This document shows positions 2,944 through 16,915 of a DNA stretch of 59,503 bases, piece after piece. Source of the stretch: a virus; IMG/VR virus record IMGVR_UViG_3300025430_000001, positions 1 through 59,503 of that record; one strand, given 5' to 3'. Position 1 is the stretch's first letter; each line of letters opens with the position of its first letter. The notes beneath the pieces were generated by a model that searched no databases, was not told the origin of the DNA, and worked only from the letters and a program-made list of their open reading frames with translations. The translations under genes and the position numbers were made by a program.

Positions 2944-3400
2944 CTGGCCCCTCGATTGCTGCTACCAGAGCTTCCCGCACCGCCAGAAGCTGATCCATGT
3001 CCAAAGCCTCCGCCTCGATCACGCGGCCTTCGACCACCTTGATGTTGGCGTTGACGTCGATCTTCTCGCCATACCGGAACCGGGCCAAGCGAATCGCCTG
3101 CCACCGGCGCTCGTTCACCAGTTCCTTGCGGATATCCCATGCAACGTCTTTCCACTCGCCAATGCCGCGCAGGATTGCCTCGTTTTCCTCAACGCGCGGC
3201 TCGATGCTTAATTCACGCGCACGGGCGTATTCTGACATAAAATAGGGGTCGCGATGCAATTCTCGGTTCATTGTGCGGTAATCAAGCCCCACTTCCGCAT
3301 CCGCGCAGATATCAGTCGCCGAACGCCCAATCGCGATCTGCTCACAGACATAAGCCTTCATGCCGTCGTTCATCAGCCGTGGTGGTCCGCGTTTCGCCAT
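2921..3400 (-). CDS. terS: Terminase small subunit
   Basis: DNA-recognition subunit of the packaging terminase. The 159-aa protein has an N-terminal helix-turn-helix region (about residues 15-50, KAYVCEQIAIGRSATDICAD) followed by the RDPYFMSEYARAREL and DIRKELVNERRWQAIRLA segments, ending in a basic patch RYGEKIDV and an acidic tail. This order matches Sf6-type small terminases. It is the first gene of the leftward late operon, 22 nt downstream of a strong promoter, with AGGAGA before the ATG. Confidence 0.88.
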   Translation of the reverse strand: MAKRGPPRLMNDGMKAYVCEQIAIGRSATDICADAEVGLDYRTMNRELHRDPYFMSEYARARELSIEPRVEENEAILRGIGEWKDVAWDIRKELVNERRWQAIRLARFRYGEKIDVNANIKVVEGRVIEAEALDMDQLLAVREALVAAIEGPDEDEMED

Positions 3401-3421
3401 TTATATCTCCTGTTCTGACAG

Positions 3422-3450
3422 GTTATACACACATCGCACCTACGTGACAA
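3422..3450 (-). promoter_or_regulatory. Sigma70-type promoter for the terS/late operon
   Basis: On the minus strand TTGTCA (3450-3445) is followed after 17 nt by TATAAC (3427-3422), 22 nt before the terS ATG. Both boxes match the consensus at five of six positions. Confidence 0.75.
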
Positions 3451-3466
3451 GTATGAGTTGACTTGT
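3447..3466. promoter_or_regulatory. Inverted repeat between divergent genes (candidate operator)
   Basis: ACAAGT-8 nt-ACTTGT overlaps the minus-strand -35 box of the terS promoter and a plus-strand TTGACT (3458-3463) that faces the 59-aa gene. The plus-strand -10 is weak (TAATGC near 3481). A regulator bound here could control both directions. Confidence 0.4.
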
Positions 3467-3517
3467 ATATTATTATTAATTAATGCATTTATTGTATTGC
3501 AATAAAGGAGACATGCA

Positions 3518-3697
3518 ATGGAAATCAACTTTGAACGTGCGTATCGACCATTCAAGGACATGAAGGTCGGTCAGATCATTTCGATTGGCCTCGACTACAA
3601 GCTCAGGGCATACGCTCATGTCTATGGCCACCAATCTGGTAGGAAGTTTCAAACCAAAACCGTGGGAGACAAGATTTACATCAAACGAACCCATTGA
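3518..3697 (+). CDS. Small basic phage protein (59 aa)
   Basis: The frame MEINFERAYRPFKDMKVGQ... ends in HQSGRKFQTKTVGDKIYIKR, a 'GRKFxT+xVG..I.I.R' ending seen in many short phage proteins of unknown role. An AAAGGAG box sits 7 nt before the ATG at 3518, a promoter-like TTGACT lies upstream and a textbook terminator starts 14 nt after the stop, so it is a monocistronic unit. It is transcribed away from terS, from the divergent region. A DNA-binding role is possible from its charge but unproven. Confidence 0.8.
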   Translation: MEINFERAYRPFKDMKVGQIISIGLDYKLRAYAHVYGHQSGRKFQTKTVGDKIYIKRTH

Positions 3698-3710
3698 AAA
3701 CAAACAATAA

Positions 3711-3738
3711 AAACCCGCTAGTAATGGCGGGTTTTTTT
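3711..3738 (+). terminator. Rho-independent terminator after the 59-aa gene
   Basis: CCCGC and GCGGG arms (3714-3718, 3727-3731), extended by two weak pairs around a GTAA tetraloop, followed by seven T residues and preceded by an A run. Confidence 0.9.
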
Positions 3739-4188
3739 ATGCCTAGTTTAGATATGCAATGACTATCCTTAAACCATTTTATCAACCGATTGTCGTAAGT
3801 CCTTGATTTTGCTCTTCTTCTTATTAATTAATTATTACTTATTATTATTATTTATAATTATTATTATAACTCTCTCTTATATCTCAGAGGGTGCTATAGT
3901 GTATCTTTATATCTCTAATTTATTTTGAGAGTGTCTATAGGGTGTATCCAATAACAGTATATCAGGAAGTGGCCATAAGTGACATTTCCAACAAGTAACT
4001 TGCATTTTTATAAGCAAATTCAATAACTTAGTTTTCATAGGTTTAAATAAATCCGTATAAGTTAAGACGTATCTATAAATCGTCACACGCCTATGGCATA
4101 TTTGGTCAGCTAACGGAGAAACCCCATGCTTACCTTCAGATTCAACTACCTTCTTACCCCAGCAGCCCCCATTAAGGAGACTAAACCC
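3739..4188. other. AT-rich non-coding stretch with repeats (candidate replication origin)
   Basis: No convincing gene lies here. Bases about 3825-3885 are almost only A and T (TTATTAATTA-type repeats). Next to them are two related segments, GGGTGCTATAGTGTATC (3890-3906) and GTGTCTATAGGGTGTATC (3931-3948), each beside a CTCTC/GAGAG element. The stretch is far more AT-rich than the rest of the genome and lies between divergently oriented blocks, as expected for an origin or a strong regulatory region. No initiator sites are recognised. Confidence 0.4.
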
Positions 4189-4520: not shown

Positions 4521-4597
<77 letters not shown>

Positions 4598-4604
4598 TCT
4601 ATTC

Positions 4605-4692
4605 GAAGAGGCTGCTCAGACGGCGGATGGGCACCGGACTGTAAATCCGGCACATAGAAACGGAGTTGGTTCGAATCCAACCCTCTTCACCA
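4605..4692 (+). tRNA. tRNA-Tyr (anticodon GTA)
   Basis: An 88-nt type II tRNA. Acceptor GAAGAGG/CCTCTTC, anticodon arm CCGGA-CTGTAAA-TCCGG (GTA at 4641-4643), long variable arm, T arm GTTGG-TTCGAAT-CCAAC, encoded CCA. The long variable arm fits bacterial tRNA-Tyr. Confidence 0.93.
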
Positions 4693-5940: not shown

Positions 5941-5972
5941 TAAAAAAATAGGGCCACCCTTTCGAGCGGCCC
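5941..5972 (-). terminator. Rho-independent terminator of the small-gene operon
   Basis: On the minus strand GGGCCGC and GTGGCCC pair around TCGAAAGG and are followed by TATTTTTTTA. One pair is G-U only in this orientation, which favours leftward function. Confidence 0.85.
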
Positions 5973-5977
5973 CAAGT

Positions 5978-6103
5978 CTAGGAGGAAGCTGACGCTACCA
6001 TGCGCTTGATGATTTTATCAAGCTTCTTGACACGCGCCAGATATCCGCGCTGCTGGGCCAGAGCCTGCGCCCGTACCAGCTCCAGTAATGTTGGCTGTCT
6101 CAT
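5978..6103 (-). CDS. Very small basic protein (41 aa)
   Basis: MRQPTLLELVRAQALAQQRG... continuing to KKLDKIIKRMVASASS, an amphipathic basic helix. Its ATG overlaps the preceding TGA as ATGA and its TAG stop lies just before the operon terminator. The fit to the operon supports coding; function unknown. Confidence 0.65.
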   Translation of the reverse strand: MRQPTLLELVRAQALAQQRGYLARVKKLDKIIKRMVASASS

Positions 6104-6318
6104 TTATGGGTCTCCCGTACGCGAATCATTTCATGCTTTGTCTGCAGGGCTGAATTGAGCAACATAATTTTCTCCCTCTGGCGGTCGTTCTCTTCCTGCA
6201 GGCGGTTGATCCGATCCCGTAAAAGACCCGCATCGTAACCGCTAATCTCAAAATACAAATCCTTCTTGGCGTGGTCATCAAGCTCTTTTAGCCACTTGGC
6301 TAACGTCCAGTTTTTCAT
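6100..6318 (-). CDS. Small coiled-coil protein (72 aa)
   Basis: MKNWTLAKWLKELDDHAKKD... then a leucine-heptad stretch (LLRDRINRLQEENDRQREKI) predicted to be coiled coil. TGATG overlap with the preceding stop. It resembles the EIERLR family in architecture but lacks the MDIVERLR start. Confidence 0.75.
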   Translation of the reverse strand: MKNWTLAKWLKELDDHAKKDLYFEISGYDAGLLRDRINRLQEENDRQREKIMLLNSALQTKHEMIRVRETHK

Positions 6319-6572
6319 CATTTATCCTCCGATAAAACAAGGTTAGCCATAGCTGCCCATGCAGCATCCGGTGCTATGCAGGCCAGCCCAAGCGCGTTAC
6401 TTGCCACCATCCTGTTCGCCGCCCTGCCTGCCTCTAGCATAGCCGGTGTTGGCTTCTCAAGGCGATTGCGCAGCCGTTCAATTTCATCGGCGGCTTCAGC
6501 AACATCTGTCGGGATGCTCATGTCAACAAATTCTAGTGAGGTAATCTTTCGTAACCGTTCAACAATATCCAT
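6318..6572 (-). CDS. MDIVERLR-family small coiled-coil protein
   Basis: An 84-aa member of the array, beginning MDIVERLRKITSLEF and containing the diagnostic EAADEIERLRNRLEKP. The C-terminal half (PTPAMLEAGRAANRM...AAWAAMANLVL) differs from its paralogues and resembles an 'AA.RM..A...A.DAAWAAM' domain seen in other phage proteins. Start fixed by TGATG overlap at 6572. Function unknown. Confidence 0.8.
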   Translation of the reverse strand: MDIVERLRKITSLEFVDMSIPTDVAEAADEIERLRNRLEKPTPAMLEAGRAANRMVASNALGLACIAPDAAWAAMANLVLSEDK

Positions 6573-6826
6573 CACTTATCTCCCTGCACTTCAGGCTCAT
6601 AAGTCATTTCAAAAATATCGGGCTTGCATGGGTAAAACTCACCCTTGACACCTTTGATGATCCAATCACCCTCAGAAGCATACATGTCACCTTCCAGCGT
6701 TGGGATCACAAAAGAACCATTGAACTCCATAGTAGATGAGTGGCCCATGAAATCACCGATCTCATCGTAGTTACTCCCGTTCCATTGAACGGCTTCAATC
6801 ACAACGGGCTTTTTACGATACTTCAT
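6572..6826 (-). CDS. MKYRKKP-family phage protein
   Basis: MKYRKKPVVIEAVQWNGSN then IPTLEGDMYASEGDWIIKGV and GEFYPCKPDIFEMTYE. This is one of the most widespread small phage proteins, usually 80-100 aa and of unknown function; all characteristic blocks are present. Embedded among the MDIVERLR genes and coupled by TGATG overlap. Confidence 0.85.
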   Translation of the reverse strand: MKYRKKPVVIEAVQWNGSNYDEIGDFMGHSSTMEFNGSFVIPTLEGDMYASEGDWIIKGVKGEFYPCKPDIFEMTYEPEVQGDK

Positions 6827-7068
6827 CACTCACCCTCCTTCAGTGCCTTTTCAGCAAGACCAACCGCCATCGCCAGAACGGTCCATGTAACGCCTTCGTT
6901 AGAAGTTTGAGGCACTGGGATGTCTTCATGTTCAATGTCTGCGATCTGCTGCAATACACCGCGTAACCGTTCAATCGTATTGGCGGCTTCATCAAAGATG
7001 TCATTGTTGCCCCAACCAACAGATAACCAAGTGGCAGCACGTTTCCGTAACCGTTCTACAATATCCAT
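6826..7068 (-). CDS. MDIVERLR-family small coiled-coil protein
   Basis: An 80-aa paralogue: MDIVERLRKRAATWL, then FDEAANTIERLRGVLQQIAD, ending LAEKALKEGE. The ALKEGE end is shared with two other members. ATG at 7068 overlaps the preceding TGA. Confidence 0.8.
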   Translation of the reverse strand: MDIVERLRKRAATWLSVGWGNNDIFDEAANTIERLRGVLQQIADIEHEDIPVPQTSNEGVTWTVLAMAVGLAEKALKEGE

Positions 7069-7244
7069 CACAACACCGATTTAACCATTTTGTGCATTGC
7101 CTTTGCTAATCGCTCAACGTGATCATTTTTCCATTTTAATTCTTCCCGCAACCGCTCAATTTCATCCGCAGCTTTTTCGCACAGGTTTTCCGCCTCATGC
7201 GGGTTATAAATAGATGCACTTCGCAACCGTTCAACAATATCCAT
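7068..7244 (-). CDS. MDIVERLR-family small coiled-coil protein (58 aa)
   Basis: MDIVERLRSASIYNPHEA..., then EKAADEIERLREELKWKNDH and a short tail ending KMVKSVL. It has both signature blocks at the usual spacing and TGATG overlaps at both ends. Confidence 0.8.
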   Translation of the reverse strand: MDIVERLRSASIYNPHEAENLCEKAADEIERLREELKWKNDHVERLAKAMHKMVKSVL

Positions 7245-7555
7245 CACTCACTCCCTTTCGCTCTTTTCCATTTAGGAAGCCCAATTTCTTCTGGCGATAA
7301 CCCATAAATGTAACCTATGACATACCACTGCTTTCCGCCATCCAGCTCAGCCATTAATGTTACAAAATCATCGTAACCATGTTCCGCATACCAAGGATCA
7401 TAACTGGTGCTGAAACGATGAAATGCGTTTCCCCAGCGTTTGTCAGTCCATTGTTTAATGAACCCCACATTCATTAGGTCTTCAAGCGTTTCGAACTCCG
7501 CTTCTTTGGGGTCAATAGAGACGTAATTCGGAAGATGTTGTTTAATGATAGCCAT
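7244..7555 (-). CDS. Hypothetical protein within the coiled-coil array
   Basis: A 103-aa protein, MAIIKQHLPNYVSIDPKE..., with aromatic-rich WYAEHGYDDFVTLM and WYVIGYIYGLSPEEIGLP. It lacks the MDIVERLR and EIERLR blocks. No family recognised. TGATG overlaps on both sides. Confidence 0.75.
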   Translation of the reverse strand: MAIIKQHLPNYVSIDPKEAEFETLEDLMNVGFIKQWTDKRWGNAFHRFSTSYDPWYAEHGYDDFVTLMAELDGGKQWYVIGYIYGLSPEEIGLPKWKRAKGSE

Positions 7556-7887
7556 CACTCACCTTCCTTCAGTGCGGCACGGGCCTTGTCCACTAAAACG
7601 ATATAACGCTTGATCAGTCCATATCGCACGTTTTCCACATCGCCAAAAATGCCAGAAATTTGGGCATCAGCAATTTCCTTCAACGCTTCCCGCATATTGT
7701 CATTTTCTTTGCAAACCTGTTTCCAATTTGCCTTTCCTATAATATCTTTCATAAATCGGTCAGCATCCATTTCGGTTATCTTTTTCCGCAACCGCTCAAT
7801 CTCATTGGCGGCCTCTTTAGCAATTTCCCAATCGCCCCAATAATCTTTTACAGATTCAAATTCCCGCAACCGTTCAACAATGTCCAT
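7555..7887 (-). CDS. MDIVERLR-family small coiled-coil protein (110 aa)
   Basis: MDIVERLREFESVKDYWG, then KEAANEIERLRKKITEMDAD, a middle insertion containing NWKQVCKENDNMREALKEIAD, and the end ARAALKEGE. Start at 7887 set by TGATG; an upstream in-frame GTG/ATG region is inside the previous gene. Confidence 0.8.
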   Translation of the reverse strand: MDIVERLREFESVKDYWGDWEIAKEAANEIERLRKKITEMDADRFMKDIIGKANWKQVCKENDNMREALKEIADAQISGIFGDVENVRYGLIKRYIVLVDKARAALKEGE

Positions 7888-8066
7888 CACTTCACCTTTA
7901 CACAAACATGCCTCGTTATTTTAGTTGTATTGATCGTAAGCACTTCTGCTTCCTTACCTGCAATTTCGCAGACCTCCTGATTTTGCATTGGTATAGTTGC
8001 CAATGTCACTGAATCGCCTTTTGCAAAAGGGCCAGCATAAATATAAAGAACCAAAATCCATTCCAT
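7887..8066 (-). CDS. Small exported or membrane-anchored protein (59 aa)
   Basis: MEWILVLYIYAGPFAKGDSV at the N-terminus is hydrophobic, like a signal anchor, followed by a polar domain with two cysteines (EVCEIAGKEAEVL..., HVCVKV). Proteins with this 'C.iAg...' arrangement recur in phages and may be periplasmic. Coupled by TGATG. Confidence 0.7.
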   Translation of the reverse strand: MEWILVLYIYAGPFAKGDSVTLATIPMQNQEVCEIAGKEAEVLTINTTKITRHVCVKVK

Positions 8067-8296
8067 CACTTTTTCTCCACTAGTGCTTTACGGGCTAATT
8101 TAATTGTGTGTGTTGTTTCTGGATTACCAAGATGGTTAATGTGCATGTATTCACATTTTTCATTTACCATTTCCCGTAACGCCTCCCGCAGCCGTTCAAT
8201 CTCTTTCACCATGTTGGCGCAATCAGTCATCATTACATAATTGATGCCGCCAATATGATGCATGTTAGGTGGATTAAAACGATCTATATATGCCAT
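8066..8296 (-). CDS. EIERLR-containing small protein (76 aa)
   Basis: MAYIDRFNPPNMHHIGGIN then MVKEIERLREALREMVNEKC and the end IKLARKALVEKK. It keeps the EIERLR heptad and ARKAL-type end but has replaced the MDIVERLR start, suggesting a diverged member of the array. TGATG start overlap. Confidence 0.75.
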   Translation of the reverse strand: MAYIDRFNPPNMHHIGGINYVMMTDCANMVKEIERLREALREMVNEKCEYMHINHLGNPETTHTIKLARKALVEKK

Positions 8297-8580
8297 CACT
8301 CATCCTCCTTCAGTGCGGCACGGGCGTCGTCAAGCCAATAAGGCTCTTTGTCGTGCCTTTCGCACCATGCAACAGCATCTTCCACAACAACCCGCAACCG
8401 TTCAATCTCATCGGCGGCATCGGTAATTGTTTTTGGCATGAGCCGTAACGCTCCCCGCAACCGTTCAATTTCGTCTAACAGCCCCCCGACAAGCACATCT
8501 GGATGCAAAGCAAAAATTGTTTTGTTCTCCATAGGTGGTCGCAGGGACAGGTATTTTTTTGCGTCATCTACAGCACTCAT
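8296..8580 (-). CDS. EIERLR-containing small protein with two copies (94 aa)
   Basis: Two EIERLR blocks (LLDEIERLRGALRLM and AADEIERLRVVVEDA) in one protein, with the shared end DDARAALKEDE and a WCERHDKEPYWL segment. This looks like an internal duplication or fusion of two array members. TGATG overlaps both sides. Confidence 0.78.
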   Translation of the reverse strand: MSAVDDAKKYLSLRPPMENKTIFALHPDVLVGGLLDEIERLRGALRLMPKTITDAADEIERLRVVVEDAVAWCERHDKEPYWLDDARAALKEDE

Positions 8581-8798
8581 CACTCACCCTCCTTCAGTGC
8601 GTCAGCAATTATCTTCAACAACGACTTTTTAATCACGGATTCAGTGGGTAACCATTGATTGATGCCCCTATCTAAATCGGTTAATGCTTTACGCAGCCGT
8701 TCAATCTCAACGTCTTTTCGTTCAATTTCATGCACCGCCCAAGCGTAGCATTCTTCTTGATCGGCGCGATCTTTCAAAACGTCCATATAACTTTCCAT
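8580..8798 (-). CDS. EIERLR-like small coiled-coil protein (72 aa)
   Basis: MESYMDVLKDRADQEECYA, then HEIERKDVEIERLRKALTDL and the end IIADALKEGE. First clear member of the array in transcription order. ATG 8798 overlaps the stop of the 37-aa gene as TGATG. Confidence 0.75.
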   Translation of the reverse strand: MESYMDVLKDRADQEECYAWAVHEIERKDVEIERLRKALTDLDRGINQWLPTESVIKKSLLKIIADALKEGE

Positions 8799-8911
8799 CA
8801 CCAAATCACCTCCCCATTAACGACAATATGCTCGTACCACCGGTGCCCCGTATCGTCCTCCCATAAGGCCCACACGTTGTCCGGTTCATATTCATATCTG
8901 ATCAGTGTCAT
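8798..8911 (-). CDS. Very small acidic/aromatic protein (37 aa)
   Basis: MTLIRYEYEPDNVWALWEDD then HRWYEHIVVNGEVIW. It overlaps the upstream gene by 20 nt and its TGA forms TGATG with the next ATG. The Trp/Tyr-rich composition and exact fit to the coupled array argue for coding; no family known. Confidence 0.6.
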   Translation of the reverse strand: MTLIRYEYEPDNVWALWEDDTGHRWYEHIVVNGEVIW

Positions 8912-9092
8912 CTTTTTTATCCCAACTAAATTTTGGCAGGGTCACCTTCGGCTTAACGGAAGCCAGATCCCCTCGGATGCTGGCCTCTCGCTTGGCTTGG
9001 TTCGATGAAACCAAGCGCACCTTGCCGTTGGGGTCAATACCGCCGACGCTTGCGCCGCCATGGTTGCGCGGACCGCGCTTGCCAATGGCCAT
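8892..9092 (-). CDS. Small basic protein (66 aa)
   Basis: MAIGKRGPRNHGGASVGGID, continuing with KVRLVSSNQAKREASIRGDL and a KPKVTLPKFSWDKKDD tail. Basic, Gly-containing N-terminus; unknown function. TGATG overlap with the preceding gene. Confidence 0.72.
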   Translation of the reverse strand: MAIGKRGPRNHGGASVGGIDPNGKVRLVSSNQAKREASIRGDLASVKPKVTLPKFSWDKKDDTDQI

Positions 9093-9313
9093 CACATATA
9101 CAGGCTATGGTCGATAGCCTTCTCCGCTGGTCCGTCGTGAAGGGCCGTGTGGTCGTTGACGTTGTCGAATGGATAACGCCGCATCTCGACGATGTCGTGA
9201 TCCTCGTCGCGGGTCTTTTTCAAGAAATTGACGTGGAACCGAGCCGCCATAAACGATTCGGTCGTAGCCACGATGTGGTCGATGCTCTTGCCTGCTGGCA
9301 CGATGTAAAACAT
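9092..9313 (-). CDS. Hypothetical protein (73 aa)
   Basis: MFYIVPAGKSIDHIVATTES then HVNFLKKTRDEDHDIVEMRR. The start at 9313 is chosen over an ATG 12 nt upstream (9325), because GGAG lies 8 nt before 9313 and actually overlaps the upstream ATG. Function unknown. Confidence 0.7.
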   Translation of the reverse strand: MFYIVPAGKSIDHIVATTESFMAARFHVNFLKKTRDEDHDIVEMRRYPFDNVNDHTALHDGPAEKAIDHSLYM

Positions 9314-10193: not shown

Positions 10194-10444
10194 TTTAATA
10201 CCTCATAAAGTTTTGATGATTTTTTGCCAGACTGCGTGGGCATAAACTCGCCTGTCCACTTCAGCATCTCGTTATCGACGAAGAATTTAAACAACTTCGC
10301 CCACATATTAGCCTTTGGTGGTGGGCCCACAAATAACTGCAACATAATGCGGATTGATTCGCCTGTTGCAGCAACGCCCACCATTTCCCGTGCCCATTCG
10401 TCGTATTGTCTCTGGGCCTTCAAATACCAGCTATCATCGCTCAT
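10190..10444 (-). CDS. Hypothetical protein downstream of primase-helicase (84 aa)
   Basis: MSDDSWYLKAQRQYDEWARE... LQLFVGPPPKANMWAKLFKF. Start overlaps the primase stop as TAATG, so it is coupled to replication protein synthesis and may be an accessory factor. No family recognised. Confidence 0.75.
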   Translation of the reverse strand: MSDDSWYLKAQRQYDEWAREMVGVAATGESIRIMLQLFVGPPPKANMWAKLFKFFVDNEMLKWTGEFMPTQSGKKSSKLYEVLK

Positions 10445-12702
10445 TAAATTTTCCTATAGCGTTTGATTTTGATCTTTTTGCGTGGGTGTATGCTTTCTTC
10501 GACGACTAGATATCCTTTATCTGCAAGCTTCTTCAGCCCCTTTTCAATATCCTCCTTCTTGTATGTCCTAAGTTTATTAACCAAAACCCCGAAAGTTTCG
10601 CCCTCGTGGTCAATCAGGTTAACCAGCCGGGATAGCAACGCGTCCTCCGGCGCTTCTTTCTGGCGGTCGTTTCCGATCACCATACGGGCCTTGGTCTCGA
10701 TGTCATTCTTGATCATCGCATAGGCCCAACGAACGTGCTCAACCGTGCGCAGACCTTCCGGTGCCGCTAGGATGAACGATACCTTTGCCACAAGCTCCTT
10801 GCCGCGCAGATACAGCGCCTCCAGCCCATTACGCTCCGAGGCGTCCTCGGCCAGATTATGCAGCGCCTCGCTGGAGCGCTCCAGAAGGGCCACGGCGTCG
10901 TCTGTCGAGGGCACCGACACCTTGGAGCCATAGTTCTCGATGCGCCCCTCTGGCATCATGCTAAAGGATCCTGCAGATGCGATCTGCTGCAGGGTTGCCT
11001 TCATCTCATCTGGCATCGGGCGCTTCTTGAACCGCTTCTTCTCGTAGGGCACCGACTTGGTCTCGATGAACAGCAACGACCGACCGATGAAACCGTTTGT
11101 GGCATTTTCAAAGTTGACAGTCGAATCAAAGTTTGTGTTGGTCGTAAACCCGATCATCGACAGGAAGGGATTGCGAATGCCGTCCTCGATGAACTTCAAA
11201 GCCTGCTCCAACTGAACACGCCGGGCTTCCTTGAGTTTGTCGGGGCCGTCATCAAGCTGCCGGTCGATCTGGGTAATCTCGGCCAGCAACTGCTTGCGGA
11301 TTTCCTTGCGCACATCGCCGCTGACCATCAGCGAACTATTGCCCTTGGAATAGACAGACATCAGGATGCCGATAATGCCTTCGAGGTAGTTTGCGCCGCC
11401 CTTGGTCTGAGCCGACTTGATCTTGGTAAACAGGTAGCCGATCTCGTCGATCAGGTAATAGGTAGGCTGGTGCTCGACGAGGTTGCGGACCATTTCCTGC
11501 TCTGACTTGATCGCGCCGTAGCAGGCCTTCTTAAGGCCCACAGCCGTCATGATCTCGCCCACGCCATCGAGGACGCTGTCCTTGCCGGTGCCCGATCCCG
11601 CGACGCAGAACCCGATTAGGTTTGACGTCACGCTGCCGATTGGATCGTTATACTTTAGGCCAATAAGGTTGCCCATTGCGATCAAAGCACCGCCGACCGA
11701 TAGGTTCTCGCGCTTATAGCGAACCTGATCTTCGATCCATTCAGCTACCTCGCCGACGAAGCCTGGTGGGCGACGCAGGTCAATGCCGCTGATATCGATC
11801 TCGTCCTGCTCTACCTCTTCAATGACCTCATTCGTCGAGAACGTGACCGGCCACTTCCAGCCACCCTCTTCAGCGTAGTAGACGAGGGTTCCGAGGGTGA
11901 CGGGGTTGGCTGACTTTCCAAAGCTGTGCCACTTCTTGGCCATGTCTGAGGCATCGTGCTTGCTGGATGTGCTGGACCAAGCCTCCCAGAGGTCGTAGGC
12001 CGAACCAGCGGATGCGTGGTGTAGGGCCATGCCGATCTTGATCCAGACATCGTAGTCGAGATCGGCGTTGTTGATATACGAGAGCATATCCCCGAGTTGA
12101 TTATATGATACATCGACGGTCTTGCTTTCAAAGGTTGCGCGATAGCGCTCTGGCTTCTTTAGCAGTTCAAGCAGCGATGCTGGGGCGGTGTCAATATCAT
12201 TTGGCGATCCCACAGCGATTGTGTAGCGGTTGCCACTGGCATGCAGCGACCCCGGCCCGACGACGTAGCCGGATGACTTGAAATCAACACCTTTGTAGGC
12301 ATCAAGCTGCTGCACCAAGGCGACATTTTCGGGAGCTTTGAAGTACAGGTGCTTCGATCCGCCACCCGATCCCGTTTCCACGATCAGGCCTGCGCCGGTG
12401 ATTTCTGGAAAGTCCTTGATCAACTGCGCATATGATTCGACGCCGCCGTTACGGGCGTCAACATCGACGACGATCAACCCCTTCACCAGCACACCGTAGC
12501 CGGTGGCGAAGTGGTCCATTTTCTCGAAGCTTTCCAATTGCTCTTCGGACCATTCCGGCACCGAGGTCCAATTAGACATGATCGGGTGCTTCAAAACCGC
12601 TTTACAATTTTTATTGTGACAAGCGCAGCGACCATCCTTTGCAATGCCATGCAAGCCAAAGATGCGGTAACCCGCCTCCCAAAAGTCGCGATGATTTGAC
12701 AT
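10444..12702 (-). CDS. Primase/polymerase-helicase fusion
   Basis: A 752-aa replication protein. N-terminal Prim-Pol-type domain (about residues 1-190): CACHNKNC and KHP near residue 35, VVDVDARNGG (metal-binding acidic motif) near 93, and GGGSKHLYF near 120. Next comes a primase C-terminal (PriCT-2-like) region around YINNADLDYDVWIKIGMALH (about 210-270), then an ATPase with Walker A CVAGSGTGKDS (about 370) and Walker B YYLIDEIGYL (about 420). The C-terminus resembles a winged helix (LADKGYLVVEE). It would prime and unwind phage DNA. ATG 12702 is chosen; it lies just after the HTH-gene stop. No DNA polymerase gene is present, so synthesis probably relies on the host. Confidence 0.88.
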   Translation of the reverse strand: MSNHRDFWEAGYRIFGLHGIAKDGRCACHNKNCKAVLKHPIMSNWTSVPEWSEEQLESFEKMDHFATGYGVLVKGLIVVDVDARNGGVESYAQLIKDFPEITGAGLIVETGSGGGSKHLYFKAPENVALVQQLDAYKGVDFKSSGYVVGPGSLHASGNRYTIAVGSPNDIDTAPASLLELLKKPERYRATFESKTVDVSYNQLGDMLSYINNADLDYDVWIKIGMALHHASAGSAYDLWEAWSSTSSKHDASDMAKKWHSFGKSANPVTLGTLVYYAEEGGWKWPVTFSTNEVIEEVEQDEIDISGIDLRRPPGFVGEVAEWIEDQVRYKRENLSVGGALIAMGNLIGLKYNDPIGSVTSNLIGFCVAGSGTGKDSVLDGVGEIMTAVGLKKACYGAIKSEQEMVRNLVEHQPTYYLIDEIGYLFTKIKSAQTKGGANYLEGIIGILMSVYSKGNSSLMVSGDVRKEIRKQLLAEITQIDRQLDDGPDKLKEARRVQLEQALKFIEDGIRNPFLSMIGFTTNTNFDSTVNFENATNGFIGRSLLFIETKSVPYEKKRFKKRPMPDEMKATLQQIASAGSFSMMPEGRIENYGSKVSVPSTDDAVALLERSSEALHNLAEDASERNGLEALYLRGKELVAKVSFILAAPEGLRTVEHVRWAYAMIKNDIETKARMVIGNDRQKEAPEDALLSRLVNLIDHEGETFGVLVNKLRTYKKEDIEKGLKKLADKGYLVVEESIHPRKKIKIKRYRKI

Positions 12703-12703
12703 T

Positions 12704-12892
12704 TTATTCTTGGTTCCCAAACAAATATTTCACGAGCTTTTCATATGTCGTCATGTGCGGATTATTGTTTTTACCCGCAGCGATAGAGCGAATGGTATTC
12801 TCGTGTAGACCAGTAGAGACAGCAACCTTTGCGAGGTTGCGGTCATTGAGCGCCACCCTTATGCGCTCCATCGTGACATTGTTCAAATCCAT
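12704..12892 (-). CDS. HTH transcriptional regulator (62 aa)
   Basis: A Cro/XRE-type DNA-binding protein: VALNDRNLAKVAVSTGLHEN followed by TIRSIAAGKNNNPHMTTYEK is a classical helix-turn-helix with recognition helix. There is no dimerisation or cleavage domain, as in small Cro-like proteins. It is the first gene of the leftward early operon, beside an inverted repeat (12918-12956) that is its likely operator, so it probably controls both early directions and itself. Confidence 0.85.
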   Translation of the reverse strand: MDLNNVTMERIRVALNDRNLAKVAVSTGLHENTIRSIAAGKNNNPHMTTYEKLVKYLFGNQE

Positions 12893-12979
12893 TTTTTATG
12901 CCTCTTTCAATATTGTGGTGTTGACAATCACACAACCTGATGTCATTTGTCAACACGTTGAAACAGAGGAGATATGCCA
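12893..12979. promoter_or_regulatory. Divergent early control region with inverted repeat
   Basis: GTGTTGACAA (12918-12927) and TTGTCAACAC (12947-12956) form a perfect 10-bp inverted repeat separated by 19 nt; a smaller TGACA/TGTCA pair lies inside it. Each arm contains TTGACA on one strand, so two -35-like boxes point in opposite directions, but the matching -10 boxes are weak. The region separates the HTH gene from the Sak4-like gene and is the best candidate for the phage's early switch. Confidence 0.65.
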
Positions 12980-13765
12980 ATGGGCATTTTAGATACGATA
13001 AAAAAGCCGGGTGACAGGCCTGTAGTTGTCACGCTTTGCGGGGATAGTGGTATGGGTAAAACCACACTTGCTGCCTCGTTTCCCAAGCCGATCTTTATTC
13101 GTGCTGAAGATGGTGTTCAATCAATCCCCGAAAATCTAAAGCCAGATGTTTTCCCCGTCATTAATGACGTCGAAGACCTTTGGAACCAGCTTAAGGGTCT
13201 GATGGGCGAAGAGCATGGCTACAAGACTTTGGTCGTTGATAGCATCACGGCTCTGGAGCGCATGTTTATCGCGGACGTCATCGCGAAGGACAACAAGAAG
13301 GCCACAAACATCCAGCAGGCTGCTGGTGGCTATGGCGCTGGCCGCGAGGCTGTCGCGATCATGCATCAGCGTTTGCGAAAGGCTGCTGCAATCCTCGCTG
13401 AAAAGCGCGGCATGCATACTGTGTTCATTGCCCACGTTGAAATCGGCACTGAAAATCCACCGGATGATGATTCGTTTAGCAAGTACGGCCTGCGCCTGCA
13501 TGCCAAGTCGATGGCACCCTATGTCGATGACGTAGATGTCGTGGGCTTCTTGAAACTGGAAACTTTTACGAAAGGTGATGGCGACCGCAAGAAAGCCATC
13601 TCCGACGGAACTCGTGTGCTGATCACACACGCAGCGGCAGCCAATGTGTCTAAAAACCGCTACGGCATTACCGAGCCACTGATTGTCGAGCTGGGTAAGA
13701 ACCCCCTCGAAGCCTATATCCCATCACTTAGCGTTGTATTGAAGAAGGAAAAAGTAAATGGTTGA
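12980..13765 (+). CDS. Sak4-like recombinase ATPase
   Basis: A 261-aa P-loop ATPase of the RecA-like phage group often called Sak4 (AAA_24), used for single-strand annealing and recombination with an SSB partner. Walker A is TLCGDSGMGKTT (near residue 20), Walker B is YKTLVVDSITALE (near 78), followed by a GYGAGREAVAIMHQR segment and VFIAHVE. Size is typical. The ATG at 12980 is preferred over 12974, because AGGAG lies 8 nt before 12980 and only 2 nt before 12974. It overlaps the SSB-like gene by 8 nt, which fits the known pairing. Confidence 0.85.
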   Translation: MGILDTIKKPGDRPVVVTLCGDSGMGKTTLAASFPKPIFIRAEDGVQSIPENLKPDVFPVINDVEDLWNQLKGLMGEEHGYKTLVVDSITALERMFIADVIAKDNKKATNIQQAAGGYGAGREAVAIMHQRLRKAAAILAEKRGMHTVFIAHVEIGTENPPDDDSFSKYGLRLHAKSMAPYVDDVDVVGFLKLETFTKGDGDRKKAISDGTRVLITHAAAANVSKNRYGITEPLIVELGKNPLEAYIPSLSVVLKKEKVNG

Positions 13766-14297
13766 TTATTGGAACCTCTCGGATGGCGATGACATCCACA
13801 AGACCGGCGGCGAATTTGAAACCGGCGGCGGTAACTTTGCTCCGATCCCCGATGGCACCGGCCTGCTGGCTGCCATTGACGAGGCAAAAATCGATGAAGA
13901 CCGTGATGGCAACGAGTTCGTCTCGATCCGCTGGTCAGTCCTGACGCCTGCGGAATACAAGAACCGCAAGGTCTTCCAGAAGATTTGGTGCATTGACGAC
14001 AAGCCGCGCCAGAAAGACCCAGAGAAGGCCAAGGACAAGGCCAAGCGCATGCTTTTTGCTATCGACAAGAACGCCGGTGGCGCACTGGTGGCCAGCGGCA
14101 AGGCACCAAATGACAACAATCTGCAGAAGGCGCTTTCGGGCAAGCAGATGCAGATCACGGTCAACATCTGGGATATGGTCGGCGACGACGGCAAGAAGAT
14201 GACCGGCAATTGGATTGCGTCGGTATCGCCGAAGGCTAACGCGTCCAAGGCTGCACGGCCACGCCCTGCAGACGACGATGATGGAATTCCGTTCTAA
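13758..14297 (+). CDS. Single-stranded DNA-binding protein (DUF669-type)
   Basis: A 179-aa protein with an OB-fold-like core (FVSIRWSVLTPAEYKNRKVF, QMQITVNIWDMVGDDG) and the acidic C-terminal tip DDDDGIPF, the hallmark used by SSBs to recruit partner proteins. DUF669 proteins next to Sak4 genes act as phage SSBs. It would coat ssDNA in replication and recombination. A GC hairpin follows. Confidence 0.82.
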   Translation: MVDYWNLSDGDDIHKTGGEFETGGGNFAPIPDGTGLLAAIDEAKIDEDRDGNEFVSIRWSVLTPAEYKNRKVFQKIWCIDDKPRQKDPEKAKDKAKRMLFAIDKNAGGALVASGKAPNDNNLQKALSGKQMQITVNIWDMVGDDGKKMTGNWIASVSPKANASKAARPRPADDDDGIPF

Positions 14298-14753: not shown

Positions 14754-15013
14754 TGGCCGATAGATTTTCTCGTGGTTGGGACGGAGATCGTCATAAAGGC
14801 AAGCGAATTGCTACATTATGGACGGATGGTTATATCGATGGTGATGTGACATTTTCATCTTATTTTGATGAACTTAGCACAACCGCTCAAATTGATCTGA
14901 TTGGCGATGTCATTGGTCTTTTGGAGCGAGAACGCAAAATTATAATGGACGAAGTAAACCCATCCGATGACCTTTGTAAGATATTGGGCTGGCCTTTAAA
15001 GGACGAAAGATAA
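14753..15013 (+). CDS. Hypothetical protein (86 aa)
   Basis: MADRFSRGWDGDRHKGKRIA... with FSSYFDELSTTAQIDLIGDV. Start at 14753 forms TGATG with the previous stop; stop overlaps the exonuclease start as TAATG. Unknown; position suggests a helper in the recombination module. Confidence 0.75.
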   Translation: MADRFSRGWDGDRHKGKRIATLWTDGYIDGDVTFSSYFDELSTTAQIDLIGDVIGLLERERKIIMDEVNPSDDLCKILGWPLKDER

Positions 15014-15612
15014 TGGAACAGCGATCCGAGGAATGGTTTAACATTCGAAAGGGCCGAGTGACCGGTTCAGCCGTTGGAGCAATCCTCGGTATCGCACCCT
15101 TTGCGAATCAAGCGGACATCTTGCGCCGCATGGTTCGTGATTGGCACAAGGCTCCCAGTGAGTTTACGGGAAACATAGCCACTAACTGGGGCGTACAGAA
15201 CGAGGCCGGTGCCCTTCTTGAATACGAGATGGTCACCGGCAACACGGTTGAACCGTGCGCCTTCTACCAATACGAGCACTGGCTCGGGGCCAGCCCCGAT
15301 GGACTGGTGGGCGATCGCGGACTGGTCGAGATCAAGTGCCCGTTTGGCATTCGGTATAAGAGACCGCCGGTATTCAAGACGGCAGCAATGCAGACCCACT
15401 ATTATGCGCAGATGCAGATACAGCTATTTGCCACGGACCGCGATTGGTGCGACTTCTACCAGTGGACGCCATACGGGGATGCGGTCGAGAGGATTGAGTT
15501 GGACAGGGCGTTTCTCAATACGATCCTGCCCGTTCTACGTAATTTTTATGAGAAATATTTGATCGAAAGAGAGCTTCCAAATGCAGAAAAATACCTTTCT
15601 GATCAAACGTGA
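15013..15612 (+). CDS. YqaJ/lambda-type exonuclease
   Basis: A 199-aa PD-(D/E)XK nuclease that would resect double-stranded ends to give ssDNA for the Sak4/SSB pair. Visible motifs: QRSEEWFNIRKGRVTGSAVG at the N-terminus, LGASPDGLVG (catalytic Asp), LVEIKCP (E-x-K) and YYAQMQIQL. Length is near that of YqaJ-type phage exonucleases. Translationally coupled to its upstream neighbour. Confidence 0.9.
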   Translation: MEQRSEEWFNIRKGRVTGSAVGAILGIAPFANQADILRRMVRDWHKAPSEFTGNIATNWGVQNEAGALLEYEMVTGNTVEPCAFYQYEHWLGASPDGLVGDRGLVEIKCPFGIRYKRPPVFKTAAMQTHYYAQMQIQLFATDRDWCDFYQWTPYGDAVERIELDRAFLNTILPVLRNFYEKYLIERELPNAEKYLSDQT

Positions 15613-15814
15613 ATTAAATGGTCTGACAAAATCACTAAATCCATGCCGTTTTTGTGGATCGGTAATGGGTCAATTGCATAATTCAACGCCACCGCATGGG
15701 CTTGCTGTTCGATGCGATGGGTGCGGTAAATTTTTAGGATGGCTTCAGAAAAACTATTCTGAACGGTTGAAGGCAGGGATGGGCATAGAAAATGGGCAAG
15801 CGAAGCAATTTTAA
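15581..15814 (+). CDS. Small zinc-ribbon protein
   Basis: A 77-aa protein with CRFCG and CDGCG pairs (about residues 22-25 and 45-48) flanking a GLAVR strand, a typical zinc ribbon followed by FLGWLQ. It overlaps the exonuclease gene by 32 nt and the methyltransferase gene by 23 nt. Similar short ribbons occur in many phage replication regions; function unknown. Confidence 0.75.
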   Translation: MQKNTFLIKRELNGLTKSLNPCRFCGSVMGQLHNSTPPHGLAVRCDGCGKFLGWLQKNYSERLKAGMGIENGQAKQF

Positions 15815-16310
15815 ACCGCACAAGCTTGATGCCTATGCGACACCGGAGGAAGCGGTTCTGCCGCTTCTTTCGCACCTACCAAAGGGTTCATATTATGCGG
15901 AGCCTTGCGCCGGTGATGGGGCTCTGATCCGCATCCTGCAAAAGCATGGCCACAAGTGCGTTGCCGCCTATGACGTTGAGCCTCGCCACAAGATCGTGAA
16001 ACAGGCAGATGCGTCATTTTTGACACGCGAAGACATGAACCGCGCCAACCTAGTGATTACAAACCCGCCTTGGGGCCGCGATGTGATGCACCAGATCATC
16101 GAGAGATCCTTGTTTTGGGGGCCGACATGGTTGCTGTTTGATGCGGATTGGATGCACACCAAGCAGGCCACGCCTTACCTGCCGCACTGCAAGAAGATTG
16201 TGTCGGTGGGGCGGGTGAAGTGGTTTGGGAATACGGCTGGCAAGGATAATTGCTGCTGGTACTTGTTTGATTTTAACGACCCGCAACCCACAATCTTCGT
16301 AGGACAGTGA
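15792..16310 (+). CDS. Phage DNA methyltransferase-like protein
   Basis: A 172-aa SAM-dependent methyltransferase-like fold. SAM-binding motif I is YYAEPCAGDGALI (near residue 36) and the catalytic NPPWG motif (near 92) is the kind used by N6-adenine enzymes. It is shorter than free-standing adenine methyltransferases and lacks an obvious target-recognition domain, so activity or specificity is uncertain. It may mark phage DNA against host nucleases. Confidence 0.78.
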   Translation: MGKRSNFKPHKLDAYATPEEAVLPLLSHLPKGSYYAEPCAGDGALIRILQKHGHKCVAAYDVEPRHKIVKQADASFLTREDMNRANLVITNPPWGRDVMHQIIERSLFWGPTWLLFDADWMHTKQATPYLPHCKKIVSVGRVKWFGNTAGKDNCCWYLFDFNDPQPTIFVGQ

Positions 16311-16726
16311 TGAGAGTTTTAATAGCATGTGAATACAGCGGCACCGTGCGCGATGCGTTTGTTGCCAAGGGGCATGATGCCATGTCGTGTGATCTGCTTC
16401 CGACCGACAAGGCTGGGCCGCATTATCAGGGTGATGTATTTGACATCATCGGCGACGGCTGGGATTTGATGATCGCGCACCCGCCATGCACGTATCTAAC
16501 CAATAGCGGCGTGACGTGGCTACACAAAGACCCTTCGAGATGGGCCAAGCTTGATGATGGCGCGGCATTCTTCAAAGCTTTGCTGAATGCTGACATCCCA
16601 ATGATCGCTGTCGAAAACCCCATTATGCACAAGTATGCCAAGGAACGCATTGGAGGGACCAGGCAGACGCAAGTTGTGCAGCCATGGATGTTTGGGCACT
16701 TAGAGCAGAAGGCGACCTGCCTGTAG
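16310..16726 (+). CDS. Cytosine-methyltransferase-like protein, truncated by amber codon
   Basis: MRVLIACEYSGTVRDAFVAK is the SAM-binding start, followed by DVFDIIGDGWDLMIAHPPCTYLT (PPC-type catalytic block) and IAVENPIMHKYA. This family resembles C5-cytosine methyltransferases without a target domain and is usually near 200 aa. Here TAG at 16724 replaces an expected Trp (the protein would read TCL-W-LKGLQPL) and leaves 138 aa. The same frame remains open to 16915. Start at 16310 by TGATG overlap. Confidence 0.8.
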   Translation: MRVLIACEYSGTVRDAFVAKGHDAMSCDLLPTDKAGPHYQGDVFDIIGDGWDLMIAHPPCTYLTNSGVTWLHKDPSRWAKLDDGAAFFKALLNADIPMIAVENPIMHKYAKERIGGTRQTQVVQPWMFGHLEQKATCL

Positions 16727-16915
16727 CTTAAGGGGCTGCAGCCATTGGTAGCGACAAACAACGTCAGGGATGAAATGATGGCGCTGCCTAAGAATCAGAG
16801 GGAGCGCTTACACTACCTGCCGCCATCAGCGGACCGGTGGAAGCTTCGCAGCACGACCTATCAAGGCATCGCTGATGCTATGGCAAAACAATGGGGCAAT
16901 AATGAATACCATTAA
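16727..16915 (+). pseudogene. 3' remainder of the methyltransferase-like gene after the amber stop
   Basis: In frame after TAG the sequence reads LKGLQPLVATNNVRDEMMAL, then RERLHYLPPSADRWKLRSTT and QGIADAMAKQWG, which are the C-terminal blocks expected of the family. No frameshift is present, so the only lesion is the stop. It may be a recent mutation, an assembly or population variant, or a read-through site. Confidence 0.75.

Follow-up and report, generated by a model that had tools for sequence, protein, structure and literature searches.

The window analysed here is the whole of a 59.5-kb viral contig (IMG/VR record IMGVR_UViG_3300025430_000001, positions 1–59,503), which comes from a freshwater phage and carries genes for an SU10-like portal and a small terminase. 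On its minus strand, ten small open reading frames (ORFs) run from position 8798 down to position 6318, chained by 1-nucleotide TGATG overlaps and lying downstream of the Prim-Pol primase gene on the same strand. Sequence comparison with related phages indicates that this array is very probably a combinatorial set of small early genes, composed of head and tail modules, and sometimes of a middle module, that are shuffled by homologous recombination at a short repeated coding block, the ‘joint’. New small proteins thus seem to arise as parts are reshuffled at a joint that stays constant. The origin of the countless small uncharacterized genes of phages is a long-standing question, and heads, joints and tails are directly readable in this array.

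Architecture of the array

An earlier, sequence-only reading of this DNA had described nearly every pair of genes as joined by TGATG, and the coupling indeed extends through all ten ORFs and on to the following gene, 6100–6318. An I-ERLR block lies inside seven of the ten ORFs, and four of these (6318–6572, 6826–7068, 7068–7244 and 7555–7887) open with the start block MDIVERLR. The joint (AADEIERLR) is found in these four genes and in 8066–8296, 8296–8580 and 8580–8798, occurring twice in 8296–8580, in which two EIERLR units had already been recognized. The genes 6572–6826, 7244–7555 and 7887–8066 are free of these motifs. The first of them, g2 (phrog_419/phrog_1810 family), sits between two joint-bearing genes and has a close copy in only 1 of 159 family loci.

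The joint is a near-identical DNA block of approximately 24–30 nucleotides (nt) carried within the reading frame. Five internal joints have no more than three mismatches to a 24-nt consensus, and the four start-codon regions, reported earlier as alike at the DNA level, have 0–2 mismatches per 25 bases to one consensus; neither consensus is matched in dinucleotide-preserving shuffles of the window. The common ancestry of the blocks at the DNA level is thus real; the stretches between the shared blocks of the seven family genes are mostly unrelated to each other. An ALKE[GD]E ending had been listed together with these motifs as common to at least seven genes. That description holds for the joint in seven genes and for MDIVERLR in four, but no more than four of the seven genes have the ending (those starting at 6826, 7555, 8296 and 8580). 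It is mostly a Shine–Dalgarno (SD) sequence for the next gene, encoded in the last codons, and mainly a translation signal: SD-like sequences occur in the last six codons of 185 of 202 coupled family genes, compared with 10% of random in-frame windows, and a typical gene junction reads GCACTGAAGGAGGGTGAGTGATG.

Heads and tails reassort among related phages

The part of each gene before the joint is termed the head and the part after it the tail. Around 160 related viral loci yielded 345 distinct joint-bearing ORFs, which were clustered at 60% identity; later counts leave out a single window ORF with no resemblance to the family. The ORFs fall into 192 head and 215 tail clusters, of which 36 head clusters pair with 2–10 tails (one head with ten) and 40 tail clusters pair with 2–5 heads. 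Four head pairs have at least two tails in common, for which divergence alone is insufficient. Heads and tails therefore reassort among related phages, and they also do so within single genomes.

Most joint-bearing genes of the window exemplify this pattern (gene names and module sequences are given in Table 1). The g10 tail occurs on other heads, and its head with other tails; the g9 head is followed by a different tail in relatives L276 and L105, and the g9 middle module is also inserted in other genes. The g8 tail is also joined to the head MDIVERLMLPIIPEY in L009 and L198, the g3 head cluster has four tails and its tail cluster several heads, and the g1 tail was found on five different heads. 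Even the conserved gene closing the array, g0, has a C-terminal half (EENDRQREKIMLLNS...) that doubles as a tail on other heads, and g4 is present as the same gene in a different neighbourhood in L102. A search with g6 returned four contigs, from four metagenomes, in which a head approximately 89% identical to that of g6 is present and the g6 tail is absent; in all four, the head is joined to the g1 tail exactly at the joint. Small joint-flanked middle modules (AAKDRPKDRPNEAADEIERLR and ALRLMPKTITDAADEIERLR) are inserted in various genes, and several heads are devoid of any MDIVERLR. The earlier view that different C-terminal halves are attached to one shared piece was correct as far as it went, but the N-terminal halves are swapped too, and the shared element behaves as a joint for recombination. 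In the close relative L102 (2700–3440), a short ORF, presumably resembling the front of an adenine methyltransferase, lies at the array edge beside part of a head (VYLQVPVNPDGPEAADEIERLR), which elsewhere is preceded by MDIVERLRHTEE....

Of the family genes that have a homologue, 88% belong to a chimera-like pair, compared with 24% of control ORFs, and chimera-like pairs make up 66% of homologous pairs in the family as opposed to 18% in the controls, which were ORFs of similar size picked mechanically from the same loci, some of them bound to be spurious. Relatives that are 90–98% identical to the window in most flanking blocks retain the same edge genes, with different array genes, orders and combinations between them. 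Copy number varies among relatives.

The exchange is recent. In L105 the same 99-nt tail, 100% identical, stands on two different heads within one contig, and in L160 a head that is 97% identical sits on two tails within one contig. Pairwise ratios of non-synonymous to synonymous substitution rates (dN/dS), calculated for pairs of at least 80% identity and hence not covering older change, are 0.14 (0.10–0.18) for heads and 0.21 (0.17–0.27) for tails. Such low values in both halves show that each is under selection as protein; the modules are under purifying selection.

Breakpoints coincide with a joint conserved at the DNA level

Breakpoints were counted in gene-against-gene DNA alignments that were not selected for where they end. 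Of 535 right alignment ends, 372 were no more than 9 nt away from the joint (104 expected), as were 309 of 412 left ends (107 expected), so that similarity boundaries fall at the joint at approximately three times the expected frequency. In alignments of the window array with the full set of loci, joints or gene junctions account for 59 of the 67 distinct ends (24.7 expected), which are not all independent. The exchanges are thus situated at joints and gene junctions, or directly beside them. Because the joint is common to the genes, alignments run through it, and breakpoints are placed to the block and not to the base. Only a few bases from the joint, DNA identity has dropped to the background level; between unrelated members, exact identity at the joint has a median of 9 nt and reaches at least 20 nt in 4%.

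Modules that differ beyond recognition still have the same joint codons. The first Arg is encoded by CGG in 86% of joints compared with 23% elsewhere, Ile by ATT in 88% compared with 55%, Ala by GCC in 74% compared with 30%, Glu by GAG in 84% compared with 38%, and Leu by TTG in 67% compared with 31%. Since these are synonymous choices, protein selection alone is not enough to account for them; their conservation would be explained either by repeated exchange, through which a single version of the joint spreads, or by a role at the DNA level.

Alternative explanations

A conventional paralogue family, in which tandem duplication was followed by divergence of the two halves at unequal speed, would produce the tandem arrangement, the common start and joint and the differing copy numbers. 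It is already contradicted by tails shared among unrelated heads, and heads among unrelated tails, whose high DNA identity falls off to background only a few bases from the joint, by head pairs with two common tails, which are impossible by divergence alone, and by the contig in which two heads bear an identical tail; it is consequently very improbable. Mis-assembly of different phage strains at common k-mers has to be considered because the relatives are all uncultured contigs and cultured phages gave one weak match. It would, however, have to act through a common block of just 24–30 nt that is rarely identical past 20 nt, generate the same g6–g1 chimera in four metagenomes and duplicate modules within one contig, and leave fused frames intact and under purifying selection, which makes it a scarcely credible source of the pattern.

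Two other explanations accept that recombination took place and differ on what the joint contributes. The joint may be conserved only for its role in the protein, as a helix or coiled-coil handle for oligomerization, with recombination incidental at the sole stretch that remains similar. IERLR is helix-forming, the structural model places the joint inside a helix, and homology-driven exchange requires no dedicated signal. Synonymous conservation far over background is unexplained by protein selection, but homogenization through repeated exchange could by itself yield it without any dedicated function, and this explanation retains a substantial, if minority, share of the probability. Alternatively, illegitimate recombination might occur anywhere, with selection retaining only those fusions that fall in a flexible, helix-compatible joint. 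The often short exact matches at joints and the breakpoints that lie elsewhere are compatible with this. Conservation of the joint at the DNA level instead points to homology-guided exchange, breakpoints are spread through the block with raised identity on both sides, and random fusions would seldom retain both frame and motif; this explanation is unlikely. The most far-reaching possibility is that the joint, conserved for more than its role in the protein, serves specifically as a DNA-level handle for recombination. The phage would use it, along with the annealase system that it encodes, as an active machine akin to exon shuffling that goes on producing new small early proteins. Less likely than not, this reading nevertheless has a fair share of the probability; if true, it would reveal a direct source of phage orphan genes.

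Several observations weigh against the shuffling of modules at the joint by homologous recombination. About 30% of right alignment ends fall away from the joint. The loci were gathered with family queries, so that the counts are not a random sample and the alignment ends are not independent, and family searches with the window members and 108 relatives gave no member a known function. Furthermore, Red-beta requires just 23–27 bp of identity (PMC3945230), and the median of 9 nt at the joint is below this length, which would make most current pairs poor substrates; exchange may happen seldom, or only between the joints most alike.

Proposed mechanism of exchange

The start blocks and joints are all direct repeats on one strand, unlike the inverted repeats that would flank the exchanged segments of an invertible shufflon or phase-variable inverton. 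As the joints also share one frame, unequal or homologous crossing-over between any two of them would fuse a head to another tail in frame, a step that is well supported by the arrangement of the repeats. Exchange between two joints on one genome would delete or duplicate the intervening genes and fuse a head to a later tail, whereas exchange between genomes would swap tails. The gene junctions (SD sequence, TGATG and MDIVERLR) would act as a second type of boundary.

The window encodes a Sak4-like annealase, an SSB and a RecE-like exonuclease. Sak4 together with its SSB anneals and recombines DNA (PMC5928155), and there is about an even chance that these phage proteins themselves carry out the exchange. 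Dozens of combinations occur in nearly identical phages, which makes both the birth of new small genes and the part played in it by phage recombinases testable.

Structure, function and distribution

Searches of Pfam, PHROG and NCBIfam with the joint-bearing window members returned only sub-threshold or coiled-coil-like PHROG matches, the best being phrog_722 (E = 2.9 × 10−5, g9), and those with 108 relatives returned only scattered weak matches to one or two members each. The model of g3 has a mean predicted local distance difference test score (pLDDT) of 77 and consists of three helices (residues 3–16, 23–47 and 58–77), with the joint in the second; that of g1 (mean pLDDT 58) is too poor to use. 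The g3 model, of moderate confidence, had no fold match in PDB or BFVD at E = 0.001 or better. The previous suggestion of a single dimerization handle in hetero-oligomerizing proteins finds no support in this sole usable model. The position of the joint within a predicted helix implies that new fusions should keep one continuous helix and its register. From the early-operon position and high turnover of the array, host interaction or counter-defence would be the likeliest role, an assignment that is tentative. The products might be small proteins of helical structure that target host or defence components, with selection for novelty keeping the array diverse.

All relatives are uncultured contigs except for one weak cultured-phage match: a search of 50,697 phage records returned only Rhizobium phage RHph_X2_24 (L355), and weakly. 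In ORF 3258–3887 of this phage, a DIVDRLR...AAAEIERLREAV segment is attached to an N-terminal part that is different and longer, and the module is therefore not restricted to freshwater contigs. Two invented family-like queries, absent as such from every locus, gave no match in the same phage records, and neither did another invented query in a genome scan. A genome scan with the start-block pattern returned two contigs of metagenome-assembled genomes (MAGs), one of which bears a small array. L353, a contig of a MAG labelled Ferrovum sp., a betaproteobacterium, has four family genes, which is a weak hint of host range or the result of a phage contig being binned by chance.

Relation to known systems

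Paper searches turned up no description of this head–tail array system. The closest published parallel is the domain mosaicism of phage proteins, in which fragments are shared between otherwise unrelated proteins through recent exchange, and for which a reservoir is expected among accessory proteins and those of unknown function (Smug et al. 2023, PMC10684548). The array genes are likewise highly similar over a fragment and not at all over the rest, and their exchange is recent. The main cases of that study are large known proteins (receptor-binding proteins, endolysins and polymerases), whereas the array genes are very small and exchange their halves through a single recurring DNA joint. If genes of this kind are grouped into families by similarity of the whole protein, misleading trees will result.

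In type I restriction systems, the target-recognition domains of HsdS are shuffled by recombination at the conserved helical segments that join them. This swapping may be regarded as the nearest working analogue, in that variable modules are separated by conserved segments at which exchange occurs in both systems. HsdS, however, is a large specificity subunit with a known function, and no HsdS match was reported in the Pfam and NCBIfam searches of array members and relatives.

Relaxed homologous recombination drives the formation of phage mosaics (De Paepe et al. 2014, PMC3945230), and phage recombinases acting on short or diverged homology are the probable class of mechanism here, given the Sak4, SSB and RecE-like exonuclease of the window. 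Whole genome segments are joined in those mosaics, whereas the joints of the array yield new protein fusions. Early phage genes also acquire new antagonistic functions through chimera formation in the case of ICP1 Odn and homing-nuclease domain shuffling (Barth et al. 2021, PMC8263062), although Odn is a single chimeric nuclease with known domains and no nuclease family was reported for array members.

Features of the window

Table 1 Genes, shared blocks and recombination functions in and around the array
Feature	Position	Strand	Description
g11	8798–8911	−	Conserved gene at upstream array edge; relatives have g11 and its neighbour g12 (8892–9095); alignments resume at 8794
g10	8580–8798	−	First array gene; head MESYMDVLKD..., joint, tail KALTDLDRGINQW...; end ALKEGE
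g9	8296–8580	−	Head MSAVDDAKKY..., two joints around middle module (GALRLMPKTITDAADEIERLR), tail VVVEDAVAW...; end ALKEDE
g8	8066–8296	−	Head MAYIDRFN..., joint, tail EALREMVNEKCEYMHINHLG...
g7	7887–8066	−	Coupled array gene without joint
g6	7555–7887	−	Head MDIVERLREFESVKDYWGDWEIAKEAANEIERLR, tail KKITEMD...; end ALKEGE
g5	7244–7555	−	Coupled array gene without joint; found elsewhere in relatives’ arrays
g4	7068–7244	−	MDIVERLRSASIYNP..., joint, short tail
g3	6826–7068	−	Head MDIVERLRKRAATWLSVGWGNND..., joint, tail GVLQQIADIEHED...; end ALKEGE
g2	6572–6826	−	Unrelated coupled gene; phrog_419 family (no function assigned), E = 3.6 × 10−39
g1	6318–6572	−	Head MDIVERLRKITSLEF..., joint, tail NRLEKPTPAMLEAGRAANR...
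g0	6100–6318	−	Conserved coupled gene closing the array
Start block g1	6550–6574	−	TGATGGATATTGTTGAACGGTTACG
Start block g3	7046–7070	−	
Start block g4	7222–7246	−	
Start block g6	7865–7889	−	
Joint g1	6468–6491	−	24-nt consensus match; alignments to four relatives end at 6497
Joint g3 (AANTIERLR)	6961–6987	−	Similarity ends at 6991, begins at 6962–6980
Joint g4	7146–7169	−	24-nt consensus match
Joint g6	7786–7809	−	24-nt consensus match; similarity begins at 7787–7796
Joint g8	8186–8212	−	Similarity ends at 8202–8203
Second joint g9	8392–8415	−	24-nt consensus match; similarity begins at 8391–8399
First joint g9	8455–8478	−	24-nt consensus match; similarity ends at 8469–8475
Joint g10	8691–8711	−	Similarity ends at 8705–8709
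Terminator-like hairpin and T-run	5949–5974	−	11-pair stem just downstream of the array operon
Prim-Pol DNA primase/polymerase gene	10444–12720	−	Upstream of the array, same strand
Sak4-like single-strand annealing protein	12974–13765	+	Candidate recombinase; phrog_124 E = 9 × 10−44, AAA_24 E = 1.5 × 10−32
Phage SSB	13758–14297	+	phrog_9002 E = 5 × 10−49; acidic C terminus DDDDGIPF
YqaJ/RecE-like recombination exonuclease	15013–15612	+	PF09588 E = 1 × 10−22; phrog_434 E = 2.6 × 10−27

Neither sigma-70 promoter-like nor terminator-like sites are in excess over shuffles in the region, and position is the sole argument for the hairpin downstream of the operon. To the left of the array, two plus-strand tRNA genes (Pro-tgg and Tyr-gta) occupy 4521–4692, and several alignments to relatives break beside them. 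Approximately 200 bp of the window (15594–15791) are nearly absent from close relatives, whose alignments break off at 15593 and begin again at 15792, separated by 6 bp. Alignments to relatives also pass without interruption from 16313 straight to 16894, so that 16314–16893 represents an insertion of approximately 580 bp in the window, including ORF 16307–16726.

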